From Verrucomicrobiota bacterium (GTDB taxonomy: Bacteria > Verrucomicrobiota > Verrucomicrobiia > Chthoniobacterales > Terrimicrobiaceae): 61,882 bases of DNA. The notes below the pieces were generated by a model. That model saw only the letters and a program-made list of their open reading frames with translations. It was not told the origin of the DNA and did not search any database. The stretch's first letter is position 1; each line of letters starts with the position of its first letter. The stretch is from NCBI GenBank assembly GCA_018970255.1, contig JAGWWS010000016.1:1-61882 (forward strand). The letters are read 5' to 3'. Below are positions 16,318-29,236 of the stretch, one piece after another. The translations under genes and the position numbers were made by a program.

Positions 16318-17160
16318 TTAAGAGCCGGCGAGGGCTGCGAGGGCGGCTTGGGATTTTTCGGCGTGCCACTTTTCGTATTCCGCCTCGGGGAGGACGCGGA
16401 TTTTCGCCTTCATGTTGTAGTGGCCGGTGCCGCAAAGCTGGCTGCAGGCGAGTTCCAATTCCGCCGGGCGCGTGACCGTGAAGTGGACCCACTTGATCGT
16501 GCGGCCGGGGACGGCGTCCTGGTAAAGACGGAACGAGGGGACATAGAAGGAGTGGATGACATCGCGGCTGCGCAGGAGGACATGGACGGTGCGGCCGGCG
16601 GGGATGACGAGTTCGGTGGTGTTGAAATCGTCCTTGCCGGCGGGGTCGTCGGGGTTGACGGCGAATTTGTTGTCGACCGTGAAGCCGGTGGGGGTGGATT
16701 CGCCGAGCTTGCCGTCGGCGCCGGGGTAGCGGAAATCCCAGCCGTATTGGTAGGAGACGATGTCGACGGTGACGGCATCGGGGGGGATGGGGGACTGGGT
16801 GAGCTCGCCCCAGACGCGGTTGCCCCAAATGGCGAGGGTGAGGAAGATGGCGGTGGGGATGATGGTCCACCAGAATTCGAGGGTGTTGTTGCCGTGGCTG
16901 TAGAAGGCCTTGTGGCCGGGGCGGCGGCGGTATTTGACGAGGTAGTAGATGTAGACGCCCTGGGTGAGGACGAAGACGGCGAGCGTGAGCCAGAAGATGA
17001 AATTCAGGATCTGGTCGATCTTTTCGCCGCCGGTGGTGAGGTTGGTGGGGGCGTAGTAGAGGTTGTGGGTGCGTTCCTCGCCGATGAGGGCGCGGGCTTC
17101 GGGGACGAAGGCGCCGAGGAGCAGGAGGCCGAGGGCGAGGATGCGTGGAAGTTGTCGCAT
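16318..17160 (-). CDS. coxB: Cytochrome c oxidase subunit II (CuA)
   Basis: A 280-aa protein with a signal/first helix, two transmembrane helices (about residues 48-75 and 95-115) and a periplasmic cupredoxin domain. The CuA ligands are present: H203 in DVIHSFYVP, C239 and C243, H247 and M250 in CSQLCGTGHYNM. The usual Glu is Gln here, which still ligates through its backbone. It receives electrons from a cytochrome c and passes them to subunit I. It is the last gene of the respiratory operon, and no coxA or coxC follows, since a convergent LysR gene lies there. No C-terminal haem domain is present. Confidence 0.95.
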   Translation of the reverse strand: MRQLPRILALGLLLLGAFVPEARALIGEERTHNLYYAPTNLTTGGEKIDQILNFIFWLTLAVFVLTQGVYIYYLVKYRRRPGHKAFYSHGNNTLEFWWTIIPTAIFLTLAIWGNRVWGELTQSPIPPDAVTVDIVSYQYGWDFRYPGADGKLGESTPTGFTVDNKFAVNPDDPAGKDDFNTTELVIPAGRTVHVLLRSRDVIHSFYVPSFRLYQDAVPGRTIKWVHFTVTRPAELELACSQLCGTGHYNMKAKIRVLPEAEYEKWHAEKSQAALAALAGS

Positions 17161-17168
17161 GGCGTGGG

Positions 17169-17876
17169 TCAGGCGGCTGGTGCGGCGGGCGCTGGCGCCG
17201 GCGCGGGAGGTGCGGCGGCGCCGGCGGCGGGCTGGGTTTCGGCCGGGATGGCCTTGAGTTCCTTCTGGGTCCAGGGTTCCTTGCGGTCTCCGCTGTCGGC
17301 GCGGACTTTCGCGACATATTCGGCGGTGATGGGCGGCGCGGCGTTGCCCCATTCGGAGCGGATGTAGGTGAGGATGGATGCGATCTGTTCGTCCTTGAGC
17401 TGCGCCCACGGGGGCATGGCATTGTTGTAGGTGTTGCCCTTCACCTGCATGGGGCCCTGGGCGCCGGCGAGGAGGATTTTCACGAGGTGGTTGTCCCCCA
17501 CCCAATCGCCTCCGACGACCCATTCGCTGGCGACGAGCGGCGGGAACTGGCCGGCGACGCCCATGCCGCTGGTCTGGTGGCAGACGGCGCAATTTTGGTT
17601 GAAGAGTCGCTTGCCGACGACCCTGGGGTCCGGCGGACCGGCCTGTGCGGCGGCGCCGCCTGCGGCGAGCTCGGGGTTGTAGACATCGGGTTTGAAGCCG
17701 CCGCTGTTCCCGGCGAGGTGGAAGCCACCCCAGAAGATGAGGACGCCGGCGAGGATGACGAGCCAGAAGGGCAGCGGGGAGCTTTTCTCGACGGGCTCGG
17801 GCGCCTCGCGCAGCTCGGGCGCGTTGGCCTCGATGCTGTCGTGGCTGCCGGGATCGTTGTTGGGCGTTTGGTTCAC
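17169..17876 (-). CDS. Membrane-anchored mono-haem cytochrome c
   Basis: A 235-aa protein with one transmembrane helix (FWLVILAGVLIFWGGFHLAG, about residues 37-56) and one periplasmic cytochrome c domain with CAVCH near residue 96 and an axial Met in NAMPPWAQL. The C-terminus is a low-complexity Ala/Pro tail. It sits between ccoO and coxB (6- and 8-base gaps), where a CcoP-like or caa3-type electron donor would be expected. It has only one haem site, unlike di-haem CcoP. Confidence 0.93.
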   Translation of the reverse strand: MNQTPNNDPGSHDSIEANAPELREAPEPVEKSSPLPFWLVILAGVLIFWGGFHLAGNSGGFKPDVYNPELAAGGAAAQAGPPDPRVVGKRLFNQNCAVCHQTSGMGVAGQFPPLVASEWVVGGDWVGDNHLVKILLAGAQGPMQVKGNTYNNAMPPWAQLKDEQIASILTYIRSEWGNAAPPITAEYVAKVRADSGDRKEPWTQKELKAIPAETQPAAGAAAPPAPAPAPAAPAA

Positions 17877-17882
17877 TGTGGA

Positions 17883-18512
17883 TTACTGGGCTGGCGGGGG
17901 CGGCGCTTCGGGGAGCGCGTAGCTTTGGTTGAGCGAGAGGAGGTAGGCGGCGAGGGCTTTCGCCTTTTGCGTGGGCACGACCTCGTAGCCGGGCTTCGGC
18001 GCGGCGGCGCCGGTGAGGCCGACGACGGATTCATTGGAAGGCTGGCCCTGGATTTTCCTCACCTCGTAAAGGTAGGAGTAGGAGGGCATGGTGGACCAGG
18101 GGACGACGCTGCGCGGGGCGTAAAGTTTTTTGTGGATGGCGTTGGCATCGTCGTTGCGGGCGCCGTAGTTCGAGAGGTCCTGGCCGGTGCGGTTCGAGCC
18201 GGGGAATGCGGTGGTGCGGCGGAGGTAGTCGCGGGCGACAGTCTGGCGTTTGCCGAGTTCCTTCGCGATATCCGTGGTGAGCGGGGCGAGGCGCACCTGC
18301 TGGCTGTGGCACTCCACGCAGCCATTGGCCGCATAGACTTTTTCGCCGATGACGGCGAGGCCGGGGAGCGTGGGCGGGAGGGTGCCGCCGGTTTCCTCGT
18401 CGGGCAGGGGCTCGAGGACGGAAAGATTGTTGTAGGAATAGGCGACCACGCCGATCCATGCGGAACCGAAGAGGACAAGGATGCCGAAGAAGAGCGAGGG
18501 CAGTTTTTTCAT
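17883..18512 (-). CDS. ccoO: cbb3-type cytochrome oxidase subunit II (mono-haem cytochrome c)
   Basis: A 209-aa protein with one N-terminal transmembrane helix (FFGILVLFGSAWIGVVAY) and a CcoO/FixO domain: GEKVYAANGCVECHSQQVR (haem c site CVECH), a segment GSNRTGQDLSNYG equivalent to the CcoO 'KRTGPDLARVG' stretch, and SVVPWSTMPSYSYL with the axial methionine. All haem-binding residues are intact. Its start overlaps the stop of the histidine-less CcoN-like gene by ATGA (18509-18512), the normal ccoN-ccoO arrangement. Confidence 0.94.
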   Translation of the reverse strand: MKKLPSLFFGILVLFGSAWIGVVAYSYNNLSVLEPLPDEETGGTLPPTLPGLAVIGEKVYAANGCVECHSQQVRLAPLTTDIAKELGKRQTVARDYLRRTTAFPGSNRTGQDLSNYGARNDDANAIHKKLYAPRSVVPWSTMPSYSYLYEVRKIQGQPSNESVVGLTGAAAPKPGYEVVPTQKAKALAAYLLSLNQSYALPEAPPPPAQ

Positions 18513-19966
18513 ACGGCGACGGGCTCGGTGGAATCGGCTTCACGCACGGCAAGGTAGGCGGGCGCGGCGTTTTTGCGGGTGTCGAGGAGGATGCCCGCGA
18601 AGAGGAGTGCGAAATTCGCGGCGGAGAGGAAGAGCAGGATGAAGCCGACTGCGGACATGAAGCGGAACGGCCAGATGAAATCCAGGGCGCTGCGGAATTC
18701 CACGATGGGGTTTGTGAGCGCGTAGGCCTGAATGAGGCCGCCGGTGAGGAGGTCGATGACGATGAGGCCGACGCCGACTGCTGCGAGCCAGTAGTGCCAT
18801 GCGACGCCGCCGTGGCAGGGCCACTCGTGGCCGGTGAGGCGCGGGACGATGTAGTAGATGGCACCCGAGGCGGCCATGGCGAAGAAACCGTAGAAGGCGA
18901 GCACCGTGAGGGCGCGGCCGATGTCCGAGAAATGCGTGACGGCGTTGACGGCCGGGAGGGAATTGATGGCGTTCAGCACCCAGTAGGCGAAGAGGCAGCC
19001 GATGCCGGTGGCGAGGAAGCGGAGCGCCGGGCTCCAGCCGACGGTGGCGTAGTGGCCGGAGAGGGTGAGGTGGAGGTTGACGCCGATGGCGAAGGCGGGG
19101 ACGAGCATCATCACGGAGGCGGCCACGCCTGCGCTTTGGATCCATGCCGGGACGGGGCCGCCGATGAGCGAGGCTCCCGCGGTCCAGGAACCGAAGAGCA
19201 TGAGGGTCCAAAAACCGAGGAGGTCGAGGTGGTGGCTGGCGACCGGTTGGCCGGAGGCTTTCGGGATGATGTAAAACGCGGCGGCCGCGCCCATGGGGGC
19301 GAGCCAGAGGTTCACGAACCCGCCGGCAAACCAGTAGGCGATGGCGGGCTGTGCCGGGGCGTTGACGGGGTTCCAGACGAGAAGGGTGTTCGCGGCGGCG
19401 AAGAGCCACGGGAAGGCGAGGAGCCCGGCGAAGAGGAACCACTCGGCCACGAAAAGGGGCGAGTCGCCGCGGCGGAAGAAGGTCAGCAGCGCCCAGATGG
19501 CGACGAGAAGGTAGGAGAGGAGAAGGATGGGTGTGGAGTAGCCCGGCAGGCAGAGGAGAGGGAGGGAAGTGCTGTCGCCCGAGAGGATGCCGCTGGCGCC
19601 GATGAGGAGCCCGAGGTTCCAAACGATGCCGGCGCTCACGAGCAGCTTGTGGTGGTCGAGTTCCACGCGGCAGAGGCGGCTGGCGAGCCAGATTCCGGCG
19701 CCGATGGCGGCGGGGGTGGCGAAGCCGTAGGCGAAAATGGTGGTGGCCGCCTGGGTGATGCGCCCGTAGGTGAGGAAGCTGATCCCCTCGAGGAACCACG
19801 GGAGGATGAGCTGGACCGAGGCAAGGGTTTCCAGCGCGAGGCCGAAGACGAGCCAGAAAAGGGCGGAGCCGAAGAACAGCAGGACCGGACCGCGCGTGGA
19901 GGCATCGATGCGGGCGCGGTCGGCGGTCGAAAGCGTGTTGGCGGAAATGGACGGGAAGGCGCTCAT
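18509..19966 (-). CDS. CcoN-like oxidase subunit I without haem/copper ligands
   Basis: A 485-aa polytopic protein alignable along its length with CcoN: TYGRI..TIFAYGF for the first-ligand helix, FYIIPKASGQPV for YFVPKQAERPV, HLDLLGFWTLMLFGSWTAG for the CuB helix, LTLSGHYATVGWSPALRFL, and AVNAVTHFSDIGRALTVLAFYGF..GAIYYIVPRL for [29 protein letters not shown]. All six ligand histidines are absent: none in 60-104 (low-spin haem), none in 207-225 (GHN becomes AGG), HH in the CuB helix becomes AS (residues 266-267), and HVH becomes a segment without His at 347-361. The cross-linked Tyr is also lost. The frame is intact and coupled to ccoO, so this is not simple decay. It probably cannot reduce oxygen and may be structural. 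Confidence 0.9.
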   Translation of the reverse strand: MSAFPSISANTLSTADRARIDASTRGPVLLFFGSALFWLVFGLALETLASVQLILPWFLEGISFLTYGRITQAATTIFAYGFATPAAIGAGIWLASRLCRVELDHHKLLVSAGIVWNLGLLIGASGILSGDSTSLPLLCLPGYSTPILLLSYLLVAIWALLTFFRRGDSPLFVAEWFLFAGLLAFPWLFAAANTLLVWNPVNAPAQPAIAYWFAGGFVNLWLAPMGAAAAFYIIPKASGQPVASHHLDLLGFWTLMLFGSWTAGASLIGGPVPAWIQSAGVAASVMMLVPAFAIGVNLHLTLSGHYATVGWSPALRFLATGIGCLFAYWVLNAINSLPAVNAVTHFSDIGRALTVLAFYGFFAMAASGAIYYIVPRLTGHEWPCHGGVAWHYWLAAVGVGLIVIDLLTGGLIQAYALTNPIVEFRSALDFIWPFRFMSAVGFILLFLSAANFALLFAGILLDTRKNAAPAYLAVREADSTEPVAV

Positions 19967-20466
19967 GGGTTCTTCTTCGATTTCCTCTTTTTCGGTTCGG
20001 GGGTGGGTTCGGGCGTGGGCTCGGGGGTCGGTGCGAGCTCGGCGGCATTTTCCGCCGGCGTGGCGACCGGTTGCTCTGGGAGCGGATCGTCCGGGGCGTT
20101 GGCGGAGGGGATTGGGTTGCCAGCGGAGTCGAGGATGGGGTAGGCGGGCGCGGGTTTTTTCGCGTTGAGCGAGGGGAGGACGAGTTTCATCGCCTCGCCG
20201 ATCGGGATTTGCACGCTGCCTGCGGGGCGGTCCACCCAGGCGTAGGTGTTGAGTTTCGCGGCATCCTCGGCCTGGAGGTCGGCAAGGTTTTTGGTGCGCT
20301 CGGCATCGCGGGCGGCGTCCTCGGGGTTGGGGTCGGCAGCCTTGCCGCCGCGGAGGATGGCGGTGGCGGCGAGGAAGAGGGCGAGCAGGCCGATGCCCAG
20401 CGCGAACGGCCAGAATCCGGACTTCTTCGGCGCGGGGGCTTCCGCGTGTTGGACGGTGGATTGCAT
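19963..20466 (-). CDS. Small membrane protein of the ACIII operon with a PTPEP repeat tail
   Basis: A 167-aa protein with one transmembrane helix (FWPFALGIGLLALFLAATAIL, about 18-38), a soluble segment containing TYAWVDRPAGSVQIPIGEAMKLVL, and a C-terminal tail with three PTPE repeats ending in a Lys-rich stretch. From memory, the W-D-x-x-x-G-x-V-x-IPI-x-x-AM motif recurs in small proteins beside cytochrome oxidase genes, whose function is not established. The start overlaps the actF stop (TGATG) and the stop overlaps the CcoN-like start (ATGA), so it is tightly coupled to both. A role in linking or assembling ACIII and the oxidase is inference. Confidence 0.8.
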   Translation of the reverse strand: MQSTVQHAEAPAPKKSGFWPFALGIGLLALFLAATAILRGGKAADPNPEDAARDAERTKNLADLQAEDAAKLNTYAWVDRPAGSVQIPIGEAMKLVLPSLNAKKPAPAYPILDSAGNPIPSANAPDDPLPEQPVATPAENAAELAPTPEPTPEPTPEPKKRKSKKNP

Positions 20467-21665
20467 CAATTCTTCAGGGCGATGGATTTCTGCAGGCGCG
20501 GGTCGCGGAGCGGCCAGAGCGGGGCGTCGCCCAGGCGCTTGAGGAACACCGCGGCCAGCGTGCAACCGATGGCGGCGAGGCAGGCGATGTCGAGCCAGCT
20601 CACCACCACGCCCGCCTTGTGGAGCGCGGGCAGGACGACCACATAGATGTCGAGAAGGTGCATGGCGAGGATCCAGACGGCCATGCCGCAAAGGAACGCC
20701 GGGCTCTTTTTGCCGAAATTGAAAAGCAGGAGCAGGAACGGGACGAAGAAGTGGCCGACGACGAGGGCGGTGCTCAGGATTTGCCAGGTCTCGGTGTTCC
20801 GGCGGAGGTAGTAGGTGGTTTCCTCCGGGATGTTCGCATACCAGATGAGCATGTATTGGCTGAAACCGATGTAGGCCCAGAAGATGGTGAAGGCCAGCAT
20901 GAGCTTGCCCATGATGTGGTAGTGCTCGAGCGTGACGACATTTTGGAGGTAGCCTGCGTTCCGGAGGGCGGTGACGACGAGGACGAGCACGCACATGCTG
21001 CTGAGCGCGGTGCCGGCGAAAATGTAGACGCCCCACATGGTGGAGAACCAGTGGTAGTCGAGGCCCATGAGCCAATCGATGGCCGAGAAGGTGAGTGCGA
21101 CGGCGAAGAGCGGGAGGCTGGCGAAGGTGATCTTGCGGTTGATGAGGGTGTAGCGGGCGGCGCCGGAGGAGTCCTGGTGGATCGAATTCGCGCGGAGCCA
21201 GACGGCGGCGATGCCGAAGAACAGGAAGTAGCAGGCGGCGCGGATCCAGAAAAATTCCTTCGTGAGGTAGGGCCACTTTTCGTCGAGGAGGAGGTCCTGG
21301 CCGGGGAGCTTGGTCATCCAATACCAGAGTTTCGGCGCGACGAAGACGAGCGGGATGAAGAGGACGCCCATGACCACGAGCAGGCTGGCGATGTTTTCCA
21401 TCTGGCGGCGGACGACGACGCTCCACTCGGCATCGACGGCGTGGTGGACGAGCGTCCAGAACAGGCCGCCCATGCAGATGGTGAGGAAAAAGGTGAAGGC
21501 GAAGAGGTAGGAGAAGGCGAACTGCTTCGTCTGGGTGAAGGCGCCGAAGCCCACGGCGGCGAAGGACACGATGGCAAGCGCAACGAGGCCGAGGAAGCGG
21601 CCGCCGACATGCTTGTAGTCGAACATGTGGCTGCCGGGTGTGGATGGTTCGTGTCCGCTGCTCAT
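20466..21665 (-). CDS. actF: Alternative Complex III subunit ActF (NrfD-like quinone-site membrane protein)
   Basis: A 399-aa membrane protein with about ten helices, paralogous to ActC but shorter. Recognisable ACIII segments are GGLFWTLVHHAVDAEWSVVVRRQMEN near residue 75 and FSAIDWLMGLDYHWFSTMWGVY near residue 215, both typical of ActF. Start ATG 21665 follows actE by a four-base overlap (21662-21665). In the complex it forms one half of the membrane arm thought to couple quinol oxidation to charge movement. Confidence 0.94.
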   Translation of the reverse strand: MSSGHEPSTPGSHMFDYKHVGGRFLGLVALAIVSFAAVGFGAFTQTKQFAFSYLFAFTFFLTICMGGLFWTLVHHAVDAEWSVVVRRQMENIASLLVVMGVLFIPLVFVAPKLWYWMTKLPGQDLLLDEKWPYLTKEFFWIRAACYFLFFGIAAVWLRANSIHQDSSGAARYTLINRKITFASLPLFAVALTFSAIDWLMGLDYHWFSTMWGVYIFAGTALSSMCVLVLVVTALRNAGYLQNVVTLEHYHIMGKLMLAFTIFWAYIGFSQYMLIWYANIPEETTYYLRRNTETWQILSTALVVGHFFVPFLLLLFNFGKKSPAFLCGMAVWILAMHLLDIYVVVLPALHKAGVVVSWLDIACLAAIGCTLAAVFLKRLGDAPLWPLRDPRLQKSIALKN

Positions 21666-22357
21666 GGGTTCTGAGATTCGAGTTTCGTCCGTTCGGCGGG
21701 CGGGAGGTCGTTGACGGTGGCGCCGCCCTGGGAGAACTGCAGCGCGCGCATGTAGGCGACGATCGCCCAGCGGTCCTGGACCTGGATGCGGTCGCCGTAG
21801 CCCATCATGGTGTTTTTGCCGTGGGTGATGGTGTTGAAGATTTCGCCATCCGCCATATCGCGGATGCGGGTTTGGTTGAGGTTCGCAATGGCGACGAGGC
21901 CGTATTTCCCGGCGATGCCATTCCCCGCGCCGGTGGCGCCGTGGCAGACCTGGCAGGAAATCGCGTAGCGTTCCTGGCCGCGGGCGATGAGTTCCGGCGT
22001 GACCTCGAACGGGATGCCCGTGCCCCACTTGTTGTCCATCTTGCCGGTGTCGAAATACGAGACGCCGCTGGAAAACCTGACTTGCTTGTAGGGGCTCTGG
22101 GATTCGCCGGTGGAGCCGTCGATGGGCTTGTGGAGGGGCATGGCGTAGCCAAGCGGGACGGTGCCAGGGACGGGCTCGCGGTTGCCGCGGCCGTCGGCGA
22201 AAAATTGGCTCGGGACCTGTGCCTTGACTTTAGGCTGGTGGTCCATGTCGGGGAAAATTTCGATGGGCGTCTTCTGGGATTTTTGGCCGCGGAAGCCAGC
22301 GACGGTCACCACGAGGACTACGAGGAGGGCGAAAATGTAGAAAAAGTATTTCAACAT
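21662..22357 (-). CDS. actE: Alternative Complex III subunit ActE (mono-haem cytochrome c)
   Basis: A 231-aa protein with an N-terminal hydrophobic anchor (YFFYIFALLVVLVVTVAGF) and one cytochrome c domain, CQVCHGATGAGNG near residue 135, with axial Met in NTMMGYGDRI. The segment VPLGYAMPLHKPI upstream of the haem is typical of ActE. There is no Cys at the membrane anchor, so it looks like a signal-anchor rather than a lipoprotein. It is thought to carry electrons from ActA to the downstream oxidase cytochromes. Confidence 0.94.
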   Translation of the reverse strand: MLKYFFYIFALLVVLVVTVAGFRGQKSQKTPIEIFPDMDHQPKVKAQVPSQFFADGRGNREPVPGTVPLGYAMPLHKPIDGSTGESQSPYKQVRFSSGVSYFDTGKMDNKWGTGIPFEVTPELIARGQERYAISCQVCHGATGAGNGIAGKYGLVAIANLNQTRIRDMADGEIFNTITHGKNTMMGYGDRIQVQDRWAIVAYMRALQFSQGGATVNDLPPAERTKLESQNP

Positions 22358-22361
22358 GGGG

Positions 22362-22922
22362 TCAGTCGCCGTGGATGGTGGTGATGTTTGTGCCGCCGAG
22401 GGATTCGAGGAAATCCTTCACGGAGCGGGGCGAGAATTTCGGGTCGGTGGACTCGATGGCGACGAAGAATTTGTCCTCGGTGACCTTTTTGAAGCGGTCC
22501 CAGTTGAAGAGTTCGTGGTTGAGGCGCGGGAGGCCGTTCATGATGAGCATCCCGAAGACGGCGGTGAAGGCCGAGAGGAGGATGGTCAACTCGAACATGA
22601 TCGGAAAAAAGGCCGGCACGGTGTAGAGGTTCGTCGGCTTGCCCGCGACGATGAGCGGGTAGAGGAACGACGAGGTGCCGAACTCGAGGGTGACTGCGGT
22701 GAGGAAGCCGGTGAGACCGCCGAAGAAGACGACTTTCCCGAGGATCGAGCGCTTGAGGCCCATCGCCTCGTCCATGCCGTGGATCGGGAACGGCGAGAAG
22801 ACATCCCACTTCGAGAAGCCGGCGTCGCGGATTTTTTCGGCCGCGTGGTAGAGGTCGCGGGCGGACTGGAACTCGGCGGCGACCCCGTAAACCGGTGCTG
22901 ATGTGTTTCCGGCGGCTTCCAT
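22362..22922 (-). CDS. actD: Alternative Complex III subunit ActD (DUF3341)
   Basis: A 186-aa protein of the DUF3341 family. It has a conserved N-terminal part (GVAAEFQSARDLYHAAEKIRDAGFSKWDVFSPFPIHGMDEAMGLKRS) and two transmembrane helices (VVFFGGLTGFLTAVTLEF and FFPIMFELTILLSAFTAVFGMLI). ActD carries no cofactor and is a structural membrane subunit. It lies between actC and actE with gaps of only 1 and 4 bases. Confidence 0.95.
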   Translation of the reverse strand: MEAAGNTSAPVYGVAAEFQSARDLYHAAEKIRDAGFSKWDVFSPFPIHGMDEAMGLKRSILGKVVFFGGLTGFLTAVTLEFGTSSFLYPLIVAGKPTNLYTVPAFFPIMFELTILLSAFTAVFGMLIMNGLPRLNHELFNWDRFKKVTEDKFFVAIESTDPKFSPRSVKDFLESLGGTNITTIHGD

Positions 22923-22923
22923 T

Positions 22924-24333
22924 TTAGTGCTTCTCCCCGTGGTGTGGGTCCGCCTCGGGCAGGACCGCTTTGACTTCGAACATGCAAATCATCGGCAGGA
23001 AGCGGATGAAGAGCAGGAACAGCGTTGTGAAGAGGCCGAAGGTTCCGACGAAGGTGCAAACATCGACCCAAGTCGGGTGGAACATTCCCCAGGCGGAGGG
23101 CATGAAGTCGCGGGCGAGCGTGGTGGCGATGATGACGAAGCGCTCGAACCACATGCCCGCATTCGGGAACTGGACGATGATCCAGACCCAGAGGAGGTGG
23201 GTGCGGAAGAATTTGAACCAGAAGAGCTGCGGGGCGACCACGTTGCAGAACATCATGGCCCAGTAGGCCCACCAGTAGGGGCCGAAGGCGCGATACCAGA
23301 AGGCCGCACGCTCGTAGGGGTTCGCGCCATACCAGGCGATGAACAACTCCATGAGGTAGGCGTAGCCGACGATGGAACCCGTGAGCAGGATGATTTTGCA
23401 CATCTTGTCCACGTGGTCGATGGTGACCAGGTCGTGGAGGGGTTTGTAGATCGCGCAGGCCGGGATCATGATGGTGAGCACCATCGCGAAGCCGCCGAAG
23501 ATGGCGCCGGCGACGAAGTAGGGCGGGAAAATCGTGGTGTGCCAGCCGGGGACGACCGAGGTGGCGAAGTCGAACGACACCACCGAGTGCACGGAGAGCA
23601 CGAGCGGGGTCGAGAGGCCGGCGAGGATGAGGTAGGCCATCTCGTAGTGGCGCCATTGGCGGTTGCCGCCGCGCCAACCGAGGGCGAGGACGCCGTAGAC
23701 GAACTTCCGGATTTTCGTTTTGCAGCGGTCGCGCAGCGTGGCGAGGTCCGGGATGAGGCCGGTATACCAGAAGAGGACCGACACGGTGAAATAGGTCGAG
23801 ACCGCGAAGACATCCCACAGGAGCGGGGAGCGGAAGTTTTGCCAGATCGCATTGGCATTCGGCACCGGCGCGAGCCACCACGCCATCCACACGCGGCCGA
23901 CATGTAGTGCGGGGTAAATGCCGGCGCAAACGACGGCGAAGAGCGTCATGGCCTCGGCGGCGCGGTTGATCGAGGTGCGCCACTTTTGGCGGGTGAGGAA
24001 AAGGATGGCCGAGATGAGCGTGCCGGCGTGGCCGATGCCGATCCAGAAGACGAAGTTCGTGATGTCCCACGCCCAGCCGACGGGGTGGTTGTTGCCCCAA
24101 ACGCCGACGCCGGTGGAGATGAGGTAGCCGAGCAGGGCGACGCAGAGGACGGTGAGCGGCACGGTGATGCCCATGGAGACCCACCACCAGGCGGGGGTTT
24201 TGCCCTCGACGATCGAACTGATGTAGTCGCTGATCCAGCCCATGGTGCGCTGGTTGAGCACGAGCGGCTGGCGGACGAGTTTCTTGTCGTCTTCCGTCAA
24301 CTGCTCGGGGTGTTCGGCGGTGGCTTGGGACAT
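22924..24333 (-). CDS. actC: Alternative Complex III subunit ActC (NrfD/PsrC-like membrane protein)
   Basis: A 469-aa membrane protein with about ten helices. It carries quinone-site segments of ACIII such as [65 protein letters not shown] and [30 protein letters not shown]. It forms the larger half of the membrane arm with ActF and holds the quinol-binding site next to ActB. The start ATG 24333 lies 10 bases after the actB stop. Confidence 0.96.
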
Positions 24334-24343
24334 TTCCTAAATC

Positions 24344-27300
24344 CTAATGGGCTGCGGGCGCGGCGTGGGCGGGGCCGGCCGGGGGTTGGGCATCGTGCGG
24401 CGCGGCGTGGGAATCGCCGTGGTGGCCGCTGCCGTTTGCCATGCCGACCTGGTCCGCACCCGGCATTTTCGGGTTCGGGTTGCGGATGCGCGTGAGGTAG
24501 GAGACGCGCGGTGCGACATTGAGGTATTTAAACATCGTGTAGGCGCGGGGGTCCTTGCGGAGGCGGCTGACCTGGCTCTTCAGGTCCGCGACATCGCCGA
24601 AGACGAGCGAGTCGTTCGGGCAGGCCTGCTGGCAGGCGACTTTGAACGGGGCGATGGGCGTCTCGCTGGCGGGCGTGGGGCCGGCCTCGACGAGGCGGGA
24701 AATTTTCGCCTCCTCGATGCGCTGGATGCAAAAGGTGCATTTTTCCATGACGCCGCGCATGCGCACGGTGACATTCGGGTTTTTCGACATCTTGAGGCTG
24801 TCGGCCATGCCTTTTTTGGCGAGTGGACCCCAGTAGAGCTCGTCGAGCGGGCGCTGGTTGTAGTCGAAATAATTGAAGCGGCGGACTTTCCAGGGGCAGT
24901 TGTTCGCGCAATAACGGGTGCCGATGCAGCGGTTGTAGGCCATGAGGTTCAGGCCGTCCTCGCTGTGGACCGTGGCGTTGACCGGGCAAACGGTTTCGCA
25001 CGGGGCGTTCTCGCAATGCTGGCACATGATGGCCTGCGAGAGCATCTCGGGGTCGTTCGCATCGCCGGCGAAATAGCGGTCGAGGCGAATCCAGGCCATG
25101 TCGCGGTTTTTTCGGACCTGTTCCTTGCCGACGACGGGAACATTGTTCTCGGCCTGGCAGGCGACGACGCAGGCATTGCAGCCGGTGCAGGTGTTGAGGT
25201 CCACCGTCATGCCCCACTGTTCCTTCGAGGTCAGTTCGGGGTGCGTGTAGAGCGAGATGTTCGGCGGGATGTGGCTGTCCATGCCCATTTTCTGGGCGAA
25301 ATCGGGCTCTTTTTCGAAGCGTTCGATCGTTCCCTCGCGGACGAGGTCGCGGCCTTCCATGCTTCGGTGCTCCTGCGTTTGGGCCATCGGGTAGTCGCGG
25401 CCGGTGACCTTGAGCGAAACGCCCGGCAGGACGCGCATCGCGGCGGTGGTGCGGAGCGGGTAGGCATCAAATCCCACGCCATCCATGAGGGCGGAGACGT
25501 TTTTGCGACCGTAGCCGAGGGCGATGGAGAGCGAATCGTCGGCGTGGCCGGGGGCAACGAGGGCGGCGGCTTCGATGGTGTTCTTGCCGTCCGAGATTTC
25601 CACGATGTCGGCAACGAGGTCGTAGTTGACATCGTTGCCGAGTTTTTCGGCGATGTCGCCGAGGATGTCGAAGTTGTTCGCCTTGACGCCGAGTTTCTTC
25701 GCGGTGGCGGGGCTGAGGAGGACAGCGTTGTCCCAAGTGAGCTTCGTGACGAAATCGGGCGTCTCGAGGAGCCAGGAGTTGTTCGCGTAGCGGCCGTCGT
25801 CCACGCTGGAGCTTTGGAGGAAGACGAGTTCGAGGGCGCCGGGTTTCGCAGCGGAAGCGGTTTTCGCGAGTTCGGCCGTGGCGGCGGTATTGAAAGAAAC
25901 TTTTGCGGTGGCGTAGGCGGAACCGGGCAGGAAGCCGTCGCGGAGGAAAGCGTTCCAAGCCTCGTCGGTGGGCTTCGGCGCGATTTGGTCAAAGGTTTCG
26001 CGGATGAGCGAGGGACCTTGGGGCGCCGGTGCGCCGGCGAGTTTGTTGAGGATTTCGAGTTCGGAGGCGCCGTTCCAGAGGGGCAGGATCATCGGCTGCA
26101 CCGAGGTGTAGGTGCCATCGCAGGTGCGGACATCGCCCCAAGCCTCCAGGAAGTGCGCGGCGGGGACATGCCAGCGGGAGAGCTTCGCCGTTTCGTCCTC
26201 GAAGAATCCGAGGTGGACGGTGTCGGGGACTTTTTCCAGGAGCTTGGCAAAACCAAGGTCGGCGGGGGCGTTGTAGGCCGGGTTCGCGCCAAGGATGAAG
26301 AGGGTTTTGACCTCGCCTTTGCCGATGGCGGCTGCGAGGTCGGAGATGGAGGCGGCGGCGGGCGTATCCGCCTTCACCGGGGCGAGCGTGGCACCGATAT
26401 TGCCGAGGGCGGAATTGATGGCGTTCGCGAGGGCTTGGACCGGCGCGGGGGTGAGCGGACCGGTGACGACAATCGAACGGCCGGGGTTCGCGGCAAGGTC
26501 GGCGGCGCATTCGTTGACCCAGACGGGGTCGATGGAAGATTCCGATTTCGGGTAGGCATCGGCGACGGCGGCGAGATTGGAATCCTTGGTGATTCCAGCG
26601 ATGGCCGTGGCGAGCTGGCGCGTGAATTCGCCGATCTCGGAGGCCTTGCAGCGCAAGCGGTGGTCGGCCATGCCGCCGGTGACCGTGTAGTGGTTCTCCA
26701 CGGCGTAGAGGCGGTTCATCGGCGCGCCCTTTTGCTCGGGGTTGCGGCGGGCGGCGAAGCCCTGCGCGTAGCCGATTCCGGTCTCGATGGGGTTCAGGAA
26801 ATCGCTGTCGATGGCCAGGACGATGTCGGCTTTTTTGAAATCGGGGATGAGGCGGATGCCAGGACCGAACGAGGCTGCGGCAGCCGTGGCGGCGGGGACT
26901 GCGGCAAGGGGGTCGTATTCCGCCCAAAGGAGCCCAGGGTATTTCGCTTGTAGCGAGGCGCGCAGGCGGTCGCGGGTGGGCGAGGATTTCGGTTCGGCGA
27001 GAATGGCAAGGCCCTGGCCGTCGCTGGCGGCGATCGATTGGACGAAGGCGTCGAACGCGGCGGGGTCGGCGGGTTTTCCTTTTTCCGTAATCTGCTTCGA
27101 ACGGTGCGGGTCGTAGAGGTTCAGCGTCTCGGCTTGGGCGAAGCTGTCGGTGCCGCCATTGGTGAATGGGTGGAGCGGGTTGCCCTCAAGCTTGGTCGGG
27201 CGGCCGTCGCTGGTCGTGGCGATGAGCGGAACCGCGCCGTAGCGGGCGGGCATGGCGGTCGCGTAGTAAAGGAACTTGCCGGGGATGGTGTATTCGACGC

Positions 27301-27553
27301 CCTTGGTGAACGGGACGAGGTAGGACTCCGGGCGGCGGCAACCGGAGAGGCCCACGCCGGCGAGCGCGATGGAGGCGCCCATGAGCTTAATGAAATCGCG
27401 CTTCGAAAGGCCGCTGTCCTGGAAGAGCTCGGCACCGCGCGGGAATTCCCGCTGCAGGTGCTTATGGAATTCGGGGTCGCCCTCGAGTTCGCGCAGGCTG
27501 CGCCAGATGCGGGGATTTTTTTCCGGGGGCGGGTGGTGGAGGTCTTTCTTCAT
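24344..27553 (-). CDS. actB: Alternative Complex III subunit ActB (Fe-S / molybdopterin-fold protein)
   Basis: A 1069-aa periplasmic subunit. A TAT-like signal lies at about residues 49-72 (LSKRDFIKLMGASIALAGVGLSGC), with Lys-Arg rather than Arg-Arg, followed by a potential lipobox Cys. The central part is the cofactor-free molybdopterin-oxidoreductase fold. The C-terminal third, from about residue 785, is a ferredoxin-like domain with Cys motifs for 3Fe-4S/4Fe-4S clusters: CTGCNACVVAC, CQHCENAPCETVCP, CIGTRYCANNCP, CTFC and CQQACP. The start ATG 27553 overlaps the actA stop by ATGA. ActB takes electrons from quinol at the ActC interface and passes them to the ActA haems. Confidence 0.95.
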   Translation of the reverse strand: MKKDLHHPPPEKNPRIWRSLRELEGDPEFHKHLQREFPRGAELFQDSGLSKRDFIKLMGASIALAGVGLSGCRRPESYLVPFTKGVEYTIPGKFLYYATAMPARYGAVPLIATTSDGRPTKLEGNPLHPFTNGGTDSFAQAETLNLYDPHRSKQITEKGKPADPAAFDAFVQSIAASDGQGLAILAEPKSSPTRDRLRASLQAKYPGLLWAEYDPLAAVPAATAAAASFGPGIRLIPDFKKADIVLAIDSDFLNPIETGIGYAQGFAARRNPEQKGAPMNRLYAVENHYTVTGGMADHRLRCKASEIGEFTRQLATAIAGITKDSNLAAVADAYPKSESSIDPVWVNECAADLAANPGRSIVVTGPLTPAPVQALANAINSALGNIGATLAPVKADTPAAASISDLAAAIGKGEVKTLFILGANPAYNAPADLGFAKLLEKVPDTVHLGFFEDETAKLSRWHVPAAHFLEAWGDVRTCDGTYTSVQPMILPLWNGASELEILNKLAGAPAPQGPSLIRETFDQIAPKPTDEAWNAFLRDGFLPGSAYATAKVSFNTAATAELAKTASAAKPGALELVFLQSSSVDDGRYANNSWLLETPDFVTKLTWDNAVLLSPATAKKLGVKANNFDILGDIAEKLGNDVNYDLVADIVEISDGKNTIEAAALVAPGHADDSLSIALGYGRKNVSALMDGVGFDAYPLRTTAAMRVLPGVSLKVTGRDYPMAQTQEHRSMEGRDLVREGTIERFEKEPDFAQKMGMDSHIPPNISLYTHPELTSKEQWGMTVDLNTCTGCNACVVACQAENNVPVVGKEQVRKNRDMAWIRLDRYFAGDANDPEMLSQAIMCQHCENAPCETVCPVNATVHSEDGLNLMAYNRCIGTRYCANNCPWKVRRFNYFDYNQRPLDELYWGPLAKKGMADSLKMSKNPNVTVRMRGVMEKCTFCIQRIEEAKISRLVEAGPTPASETPIAPFKVACQQACPNDSLVFGDVADLKSQVSRLRKDPRAYTMFKYLNVAPRVSYLTRIRNPNPKMPGADQVGMANGSGHHGDSHAAPHDAQPPAGPAHAAPAAH

Positions 27554-28203
27554 CGGTGGCAGCCTCCGCAAGTGACGGGCGGGTTGACTTCCCACTCTTC
27601 CTTGAATTTCAGGCCGATTTCGCGCTGGGTCTCGCCCTGCGGCGGCTTCCAGGCCATGTTGTAGATTTCCTCGGGCGGGCGGAGGTGGTTTTCCGGCGCA
27701 CGGTGGCAATCGAGGCACCAGGACATGCTTTGGGGCTCGTGCTGGTAAACGACCTTCATTTCGTTCACGGCGCCGTGGCAGCTGTAGCAGCTCACGCCGC
27801 GGTTCACATGGACCGCGTGGTTGAAGTAGGTGTAGTCGGGAACCTGGTGGATGCGGACCCAGTTGACAGGCTGGCCGGTTTTCCAGCTCTCGCGGACGGC
27901 GGCGAGTTTCGGGCTGTCGGCCTTGATCTGGGTGTGGCAGGACATGCAGGTCTGGGTGGTCGGGACATTCGAGTGCGAGGCGACCTCGACGAAGCTGTGG
28001 CAATAGCGGCAATCCATCCCGAGCTGCTGCACGTGGATCACATGGGAGAACGGAACCGGTTGGTTCGGCTCATACCCCACGCGGGTGTATTTCGGCGTGA
28101 AGTAGTAGGTGATGCCTCCCACGATCGCGGTCGCTAGAGCGCCCAAGCAGATGACCAGCTTAAGCGGGATCCAGTTCGTCCACTTTGGAAAAAAATTCGC
28201 CAT
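27550..28203 (-). CDS. actA: Alternative Complex III subunit ActA (pentahaem cytochrome c)
   Basis: A 217-aa protein with one N-terminal transmembrane helix (LVICLGALATAIVGGITYYF) and five CxxCH haem sites at residues 65-69 (CRYCH), 86-90 (CMSCH), 139-143 (CYSCH), 163-167 (CLDCH) and 212-216 (CGGCH). This number and order is the hallmark of ActA. It is the first gene of the operon that runs to coxB. The 111-base gap upstream, shared with a divergent DUF192 gene, must hold the operon promoter, but no convincing -35/-10 pair was found. Confidence 0.96.
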   Translation of the reverse strand: MANFFPKWTNWIPLKLVICLGALATAIVGGITYYFTPKYTRVGYEPNQPVPFSHVIHVQQLGMDCRYCHSFVEVASHSNVPTTQTCMSCHTQIKADSPKLAAVRESWKTGQPVNWVRIHQVPDYTYFNHAVHVNRGVSCYSCHGAVNEMKVVYQHEPQSMSWCLDCHRAPENHLRPPEEIYNMAWKPPQGETQREIGLKFKEEWEVNPPVTCGGCHR

Positions 28204-28867: not shown

Positions 28868-29220
28868 GGGGGCGTAATGGTTTCGACTTCGAGTGTGAAA
28901 CCCGGCCCGCATGCCGAGGATGATTCGTTGGCCTCGTAAAAAATCGGATCACACAAACAAACGCAGATTACGAAGATCTCGCTCTCGCGGCCTAATTGAG
29001 CCGTGACGCGTTCCGGCGGACGCCTGCTAAGCCGGAACGCGACGACAGCAGGCTGGTCCGGGATGGGGCGACCGCTACCCCGGGTGAATCGATTCCGTGG
29101 ACGCTTTGGCAGGGGATGCGTGGCGGTTCGCCAGCCCCGGCCGAGACCAAAGACCGCCTAAGCATGTAGAAGGTTGTGCGGATCGTTTGAAGGACAGGGG
29201 TTCGACTCCCCTCGCCTCCA
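28868..29220 (+). ncRNA. ssrA: Transfer-messenger RNA
   Basis: A one-piece tmRNA of about 353 bases. The 5' end GGGGGCGTAATGGTTTCGAC is the classic start, and its first seven bases pair with CGCCTCC near 29213-29219. The T-arm GGGGTTCGACTCCCC lies just before the 3' end. CCA is not clearly encoded beyond the final CCTCCA, so the tail may be added enzymatically. The tag reading frame ends NADYEDLALAA followed by TAA at 28993-28995; the resume codon is a little upstream and could not be fixed. It frees stalled ribosomes and marks the unfinished protein for proteolysis. Confidence 0.95.
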
Positions 29221-29236
29221 GTTTTCCCGGGCGCGG

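Follow-up and report, generated by a model that had tools for sequence, protein, structure and literature searches.

The window analysed here is a stretch of 61,882 nucleotides from a Verrucomicrobiota bacterium of the order Chthoniobacterales (contig JAGWWS010000016.1 of assembly GCA_018970255.1), and its subject is ccoN*, a gene within an operon for alternative complex III (ACIII). Judged from alignment and a predicted structure, ccoN* encodes a subunit I of the C-type (cbb3) oxidases that has lost its metal sites, in a family in which other members retain them. The loss appears to be recurrent and to go together with that of the insertion factor CcoS, and relatives with the full set of ligands or a half-way set exist. 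From gene content and haem-motif counts we think it probable that CcoN* is a cofactor-free frame, which would hold the cytochromes CcoO and CcoP* as an electron bridge from ACIII to an aa3-type oxidase.

A sequence-only reading of this DNA had described an intact CcoN-like frame, overlapping ccoO by ATGA, in which all six haem and CuB histidines and the cross-linked tyrosine were gone. Each of these points was borne out. The frame is open throughout and encodes a membrane protein, and the overlap of the ccoN* stop with the ccoO start recurs in 32 of 45 orthologues (tallied by eye). The protein matches Pfam COX1 (E 4.3e-35), and its nearest PDB structure by sequence is Pseudomonas stutzeri CcoN (3mk7, E 7.5e-25). 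An AlphaFold2 model made with 37 orthologues as input had a predicted local distance difference test score (pLDDT) of 90 and a predicted TM-score (pTM) of 0.91. When this model was submitted to Foldseek, the first seven matches were cbb3 subunits, and the comparison with 3mk7 gave TM-scores of 0.85/0.89, a root mean square deviation of 2.4 and 23% identity. The NCBIfam ccoN equivalog score, 106.7 bits, is far below the cut-off of 583, which is also missed by four relatives with all six histidines (full-His forms; 220–256 bits).

To assign the ligand positions, CcoN* was aligned with P. stutzeri CcoN (residues 20–450, numbered by the 3mk7 sequence index) and with seven canonical CcoNO sequences of the window's order. 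Columns 60, 207, 257, 258, 345 and 347 are His in P. stutzeri and in all seven, and read A-G-A-S-L-V in CcoN*; the cross-linked tyrosine (Y251) is Gly, and the active-site glutamate (E323) is also lost, to Leu. By analogy with other oxidases we take H345 to be the haem b3 ligand and H60 and H347 to be the low-spin haem ligands. None of the six sites has a His in CcoN* at a distance of 3 residues or less. CcoN* is thus a C-type subunit I by COX1 fold and sequence similarity, with 0/6 His ligands; its oxygen-reducing site appears to be gone, and it very probably binds no cofactor.

Histidines 105–106 and 245–246 had been named as residues that might occupy the metal sites after all, and were rejected as substitute ligands. 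They adjoin the starts of helices 106–128 and 245–267 in the model, H105 lying outside the helix, and among the orthologues without the ligands (the lost set, counted below) H106, H245 and H246 are conserved as His in fractions of just 0.08, 0.06 and 0.11. Because these residues sit at helix starts and are poorly conserved as His, the ligand loss is not explained by misalignment. The loss took place within the family, since orthologues with all six histidines occur in the same genus.

Searching with the CcoN* protein gave matches in 50 of 58 genomes, the window genome included; in two of them (G016 and G036) only canonical-type CcoNO was matched. A first set was taken with its gene neighbourhood from 45 of the 47 other genomes, leaving out G021 and the two contig-edge fragments of G008. 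All 45 frames were open (L056 is cut at its start), and 41 loci had neighbouring act genes; for L056 and L063 the contig is too short to judge. ActC alignment supplied a second set of 80 loci, where the ccoN* query alone had found none; three loci taken as duplicates because their contigs equal earlier ones in length (L090, L092, L110) and those cut by contig ends (L091, L100, L112, L135) were excluded. Loci were chosen by nearness to the window, and the resulting fractions are not phylum frequencies: the 99 usable family loci, window included, comprise 22 with six histidines, one with five (L045), 13 of a low-spin type and 63 that we call lost. Orthologues beside ACIII genes, which the sequence-only reading had proposed to look for, were found widely (act genes seen beside 95 of the 99). 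Among 286 genomes drawn evenly from the class, 15 carried the exact full-His CuB-site motif.

Twelve of the low-spin loci keep solely H60 and H347, and in the thirteenth, L114, the start is missing and H60 is uncovered. These forms apparently represent a half-way stage, which would bind a single haem b and lack the oxygen site. Their pattern is HNQRYH at the six sites (L061, L062, L064, L096, L098, L099, L101, L103, L105, L106, L107 and L111; cut in L114). His is absent from all six columns in 38 of the 63 lost loci; it occupies one column in 21, two in three and three in one (L155), the split gene of L102 being scored by its alignable piece. In 0/63 are both low-spin or all three CuB histidines present. 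L155, from a record titled Methylacidiphilaceae, reads YHYYHH. In its family a match was found in 11 of 12 genomes, and the ten best matches besides L155 were three full-His forms with Q323 (L228–L230), six reading AHHDNF and one cut (L231–L237). The AHHDNF forms (L231–L236) are another residue pattern of loss. Position 323 is Gln, not Glu, in 21 of the 22 full-His forms, and for this reason the oxidase activity of the full-His forms is itself questionable; full-His loci such as L048, L057 and L130 have Gln at 323 despite the presence of CcoS.

The number of losses was estimated on two trees, an Act tree of ACIII proteins (FastTree, 91 of the 99 loci, with long-branch warnings) and a ccoN gene tree built with the ligand columns removed. 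Scored as full or not full, the Act tree requires at least nine changes by parsimony, or 16 losses if regain is barred. The ccoN tree needs four, which is a low count, as long branches draw the lost rows together on it. A single loss followed by descent was rejected on the ccoN tree by the approximately unbiased (AU) test of a single lost clade (p-AU 0.005). In the window's genus, the Act tree places the window group next to the full-His loci L043 and L048, and the ccoN tree clusters the lost forms; either gene exchange or long-branch attraction could account for the conflict. Because the trees disagree, with two explanations possible, the loss count is given as a range. Within that range the ligand loss appears to be multiple and recurrent.

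Passages of PMC8267372 (citing Koch 2000) report that in Rhodobacter capsulatus CcoS is required for haem b, haem b3 and CuB in CcoN. When whole genomes were searched with Pfam FixS/CcoS, 7 of 11 full or near-full genomes had a small gene immediately upstream of ccoN, and 7/7 lost genomes gave no match. The window genome (G000, 93% complete) had no FixS match, and none was seen upstream of ccoN* either. This Pfam model is incompletely sensitive: it missed G018, G028 and G063, found in G062 only a copy elsewhere, and gave no match in G030 and G039 although canonical CcoNO is present in both. A custom hidden Markov model (HMM) of CcoS was trained on those seven genes, which belong to full-His loci in the window's order. 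With it, a CcoS-like open reading frame (ORF) was found just upstream of ccoN in 21/21 testable full-His loci (L056 has no upstream sequence) and in the near-full L045, and in 0/63 lost loci, the upstream sequence being short in L063 (201 bases) and L055 (820 bases). One of the 13 low-spin loci had a match (L098, E 2e-4), to the protein tail only and with no membrane segment. The upstream region of L098 likely holds a CcoS remnant that retains the conserved tail motif. As checks of the HMM, the gene was found in the deep-branching full-His loci L127, L130, L136, L166 and L169, and in 6/6 new loci picked solely by the CuB motif, irrespective of any ACIII link. Ligand state and CcoS agreed in 9/9 independent pairs on the Act tree (p = 0.004), and on the ccoN tree in 4/4 under almost all pairings, a number too small to test. 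A search for the CcoG family gave matches in 7 of 18 genomes, namely six that also matched canonical CcoNO, and G062. The remaining full-His genomes lack it, so that these forms, if metalated, do without CcoG.

Selection was assessed from the ratio of non-synonymous to synonymous substitution rates (dN/dS) by a counting method, in pairs that are not all independent and with synonymous sites near saturation in several, so that each ratio is rough. Lost ccoN gave 0.03–0.31 (11/11 pairs), and full and low-spin ccoN gave 0.04–0.09 and 0.05–0.10 (4 pairs each). These figures exclude actF, the pairs L037/L039 (ccoN 0.071) and L044/L048 (0.034), and L151/L154, L043/L048 and L136/L169, in which ccoN synonymous sites are saturated. 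The lost genes evidently evolve under purifying selection, the outcome for which the sequence-only reading had suggested a check. In the alignment, Trp, Gly, Pro and Arg positions of lost ccoN are conserved jointly with canonical CcoN, and the former ligand positions vary freely. At ActC-selected loci with 3.5 kb of sequence after actF (n = 53), ccoN and ccoO occur together in 48, neither occurs in five (L125, L133, L161, L162 and L168) and one alone in none; 27 further loci were too short. Apart from a split copy in Chthoniobacter flavus, no broken lost ccoN was seen among the loci examined; in L120 and L141 a stop precedes the likely start, and the frame is open from there on. The co-loss of CcoS, the purifying selection and the fact that ccoN is never parted from ccoO lend good support to the earlier claim that the gene is selected although its sites are lost.

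The haem c motifs of the operons point to a route for electrons. At least two ORFs with CxxCH follow ccoN in 83/83 loci having 2.4 kb of sequence. ActA has five CxxCH motifs in 74/74 complete ORFs from loci with the ccoN-ccoO module, and ActE one in 90/90. CoxB linked to the module has the CuA motif and no CxxCH in 34/34 (25 loci, the window and 8 more), a count that leaves out L042 and L052 (a match, with no ORF carrying the motif) and L119 (coxB on the other strand). For Flavobacterium johnsoniae, passages of PMC8552683 propose that the electron step to the oxidase runs via a sixth ActA haem, and for Rhodothermus marinus via the extra haem c of caa3. The ccoN* module operons have neither the sixth ActA haem motif nor a CoxB-fused haem c motif. 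In ACIII operons without the module, those having CoxB carry the fused CxxCH (3/3), and six stand-alone CoxB proteins in module genomes carry it as well.

In the reading that we propose, CcoN* is a cbb3-type subunit I turned pseudo-oxidase: it would receive no haem b, haem b3 or CuB and would keep the membrane bundle anchoring CcoO and the CcoP-like cytochrome c. ACIII, CcoN*-O-P and the aa3 oxidase may assemble as one unit. In this scheme ACIII would oxidise menaquinol, and the electrons would exit through the five-haem ActA and the one-haem ActE, then reach, by way of CcoO and CcoP* with their two c-haems, the CuA of CoxB, the presumed subunit II of an oxygen reductase whose CoxA would be the one on contig C41 of the window genome. 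The cytochromes CcoO and CcoP* would thereby carry electrons from ACIII to CoxB, their haems standing in, in this lineage, for the CoxB-fused haem c of caa3 oxidases. CcoN* would be retained because CcoO and CcoP* depend on it to be assembled and positioned. Passages of PMC8267372 and PMC5742617 report that R. capsulatus without CcoS still assembles the CcoNOQP complex, in an inactive form, and it follows that apo-CcoN can hold its cytochromes. The sequence-only reading had already suggested a cofactor-free scaffold docking CcoO and cytochromes to ACIII; this is the best-supported role, and one that we infer. It builds on observations, namely the ligand loss, the predicted fold, the operon, the co-loss of CcoS, the selection and the haem-motif counts. 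For the fuller history, in which a catalytic oxidase subunit turned into a cofactor-free structural subunit several times in one phylum, with loss of its insertion gene, a role as bridge frame and low-spin relatives half-way, the balance tips only slightly in favour.

Several observations weigh against a bridge held by CcoN*. Three stand-alone CoxB proteins in module genomes also lack haem c (L172, L175 and L176), and the connection from ACIII to CoxB could equally well be made by a soluble cytochrome c. Full-His and lost forms adjoin the same CoxB and CoxA genes, so that ligand loss is not matched by any change of oxidase. Nor is the module tied to ACIII in every case, because two full-His loci (L049 and L050) have no act genes within the upstream stretches of ~12 kb and ~6 kb. 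In the lost pairs dN/dS is lower for ccoO than for ccoN in 9/11 and for actC in 9/9, and this faster change indicates looser constraint on lost ccoN. Finally, the ccoN of C. flavus Ellin428 (L102:14589-16074) is split into two frames in its draft genome, through either error or decay. These last two points, with the free variation at the former ligand positions, could also mean that CcoN* is jobless and drifting to loss, carried along by its mid-operon position. We consider this unlikely given the low dN/dS in all 11 lost pairs, the lack of any other broken lost copy, the presence of ccoN wherever ccoO is present (48/48) and the Trp, Gly, Pro and Arg positions shared with canonical CcoN.

A little less probable still is that the emptied haem cavity moves protons or holds menaquinone for ACIII. 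The setting would suit such a role, as ActC belongs to the NrfD-like subunits, which PMC8076601 describes as cofactor-free quinone proteins. However, acidic residues are absent from the positions with at least 85% conservation in the lost set, which leaves the proton channel of the sequence-only reading without support; the sole acidic residue within a helix of the window protein that is acidic in most of the lost set is D21 (0.87), at the start of helix 1. The residues R69, R97, K236, R316, R376 and H391 are mostly conserved but are common to canonical CcoN. A different cofactor or altered ligation, with haem held on other residues or a single remaining haem, finds some encouragement in the 13 relatives of the L061 type, where a one-haem stage seems to exist; it is nevertheless improbable for the lost forms, which never hold both low-spin or all three CuB histidines and mostly hold none, and for the window protein, with no His near the sites and no CcoS found. 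That the state is an artefact of metagenome assembly or alignment can be practically discounted: most records are metagenome-assembled genomes (MAGs), but the same state is found in Spartobacteria bacterium LR76 (L067/L092), whose record lacks a MAG label, and in many separate assemblies, and the fold is predicted at the high pLDDT given above. An aa3 oxidase arriving alongside was also considered as the driver of His loss, and is unsupported, full-His loci having coxB and coxA too.

Compared with known systems, CcoN* resembles the cbb3 CcoN of P. stutzeri (3mk7/5djq) in fold, sequence family and its CcoO and CcoP-like partners, but differs in lacking the haem b, haem b3 and CuB ligands, the cross-linked Tyr and E323, in having no CcoS found and in lying inside an ACIII operon. 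The ACIII-linked oxidases of verrucomicrobial methanotrophs and Opitutaceae have the same order, ACIII then cbb3-like genes. Passages of PMC8498564 and PMC6688271 treat the ACIII-adjacent C-type oxidase of the methanotrophs as an ordinary cbb3, whereas ccoN* is ligand-free here; PMC8498564 adds Opitutaceae to its holders, and PMC6688271 links the methanotroph ccoN beside ACIII to high oxygen affinity. A paper on freshwater Verrucomicrobia, in the part consulted, touches briefly on genes for ACIII and oxidases (PMC5615132). Against the published reading of a working cbb3, the oxygen-reducing site appears to be gone in 76 of the 99 family loci (63 lost and 13 low-spin only). The F. johnsoniae ACIII-aa3 supercomplex and R. 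marinus ACIII-caa3 likewise pair ACIII with an A-type oxidase; in place of the sixth ActA haem or the caa3 haem c proposed for them, the ccoN* operons have CcoO and CcoP* encoded between. The CcoS-deficient cbb3 of R. capsulatus (Koch 2000 and Kulajta 2006, as cited in PMC8267372 and PMC5742617), also an inactive CcoN assembled with cytochromes, would be a laboratory counterpart of the proposed state, but is a mutant, whereas ccoN* is evolutionarily fixed and its ligands are gone too. We found no description in the open-access literature of a ligand-free haem-copper oxidase subunit I kept in an operon. The natural series of six histidines, the low-spin pair and none lets one ask what use an oxidase subunit still has once catalysis is removed, and the family also offers a testable answer to the question of how electrons reach, from ACIII, an oxidase without a fused haem c.

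The operon reads actA-actB-actC-actD-actE-actF, a small protein, ccoN*, ccoO, ccoP* and coxB (Table 1), with actABCDEF in the order expected of ACIII. CcoN* has both a CcoO and a CcoP partner, though the CcoP-like protein scores weakly (33 bits against the ccoP model, cut-off 180). The CoxB of the window has the CuA motif and lacks CxxCH, and so has no caa3-type fused haem c. No Pfam match was obtained for ActF or for the small protein, and the Molybdopterin match of ActB is weak (E 0.006, under its cut-off).

Table 1. Genes of the ACIII-ccoN* operon, with positions in the window.
Feature	Position	Strand	Remarks
coxB, CuA subunit II, A-type oxidase	16318..17160	-	280 aa; TIGR02866 CoxB 150.6 bits (above cut-off)
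ccoP*-like membrane-anchored mono-haem cytochrome c	17169..17876	-	235 aa; Pfam Cytochrom_C E 1.4e-13; anchor by eye
ccoO-like mono-haem cytochrome c	17883..18512	-	209 aa, one CxxCH; Pfam FixO E 2.2e-15
ccoN*, CcoN-like subunit I without haem or CuB ligands	18509..19966	-	485 aa
Small protein ('SmTM') between actF and ccoN*	19963..20466	-	one membrane span by eye
actF	20466..21665	-	start approximate; named by operon place and conservation among relatives
actE, mono-haem cytochrome c	21662..22357	-	one CxxCH; Pfam cytochrome c E 5.6e-14
actD	22362..22922	-	Pfam ActD (alternative complex III) E 1.1e-61
actC, NrfD-like	22924..24333	-	Pfam NrfD E 1.5e-16
actB, iron-sulphur (FeS) protein	24344..27553	-	Pfam Fer4_7 E 3.9e-14; start by eye
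actA, penta-haem cytochrome c	27550..28203	-	five CxxCH; Pfam Cytochrome_C7 E 2e-14

Named ActC matches, at up to 92% identity, place the window genome near Chthoniobacterales/Spartobacteria. It encodes three further high-scoring COX1 proteins. No canonical cbb3 was found in it, the ccoN* query finding only itself there; the same query does find canonical CcoNO in other genomes. In several relatives coxA lies directly after the operon and is 67–82% identical to the coxA on contig C41.

Some related operons are arranged differently. At L049 and L050 a full-His ccoN stands with ccoS, ccoO and ccoP, and the module may also stand without ACIII. A variant with ccoN*-ccoO-ccoP-(cytochrome c)-coxA-coxC and coxB further downstream was seen in L073, L074, L138 and L158, with a di-haem CcoP in L073 and L074. 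Replacement of CuA by CcoO/CcoP in operons of the L073, L074 and L138 type was rejected, coxB being present further downstream. The small protein of the window has a proline-rich tail, and tblastn matches it at 58 of the 98 loci from relatives. On the opposite strand, about 0.7 kb from the actA start, lies a transfer-messenger RNA (tmRNA) gene (28868-29223, plus strand) with the tag ADYEDLALAA.

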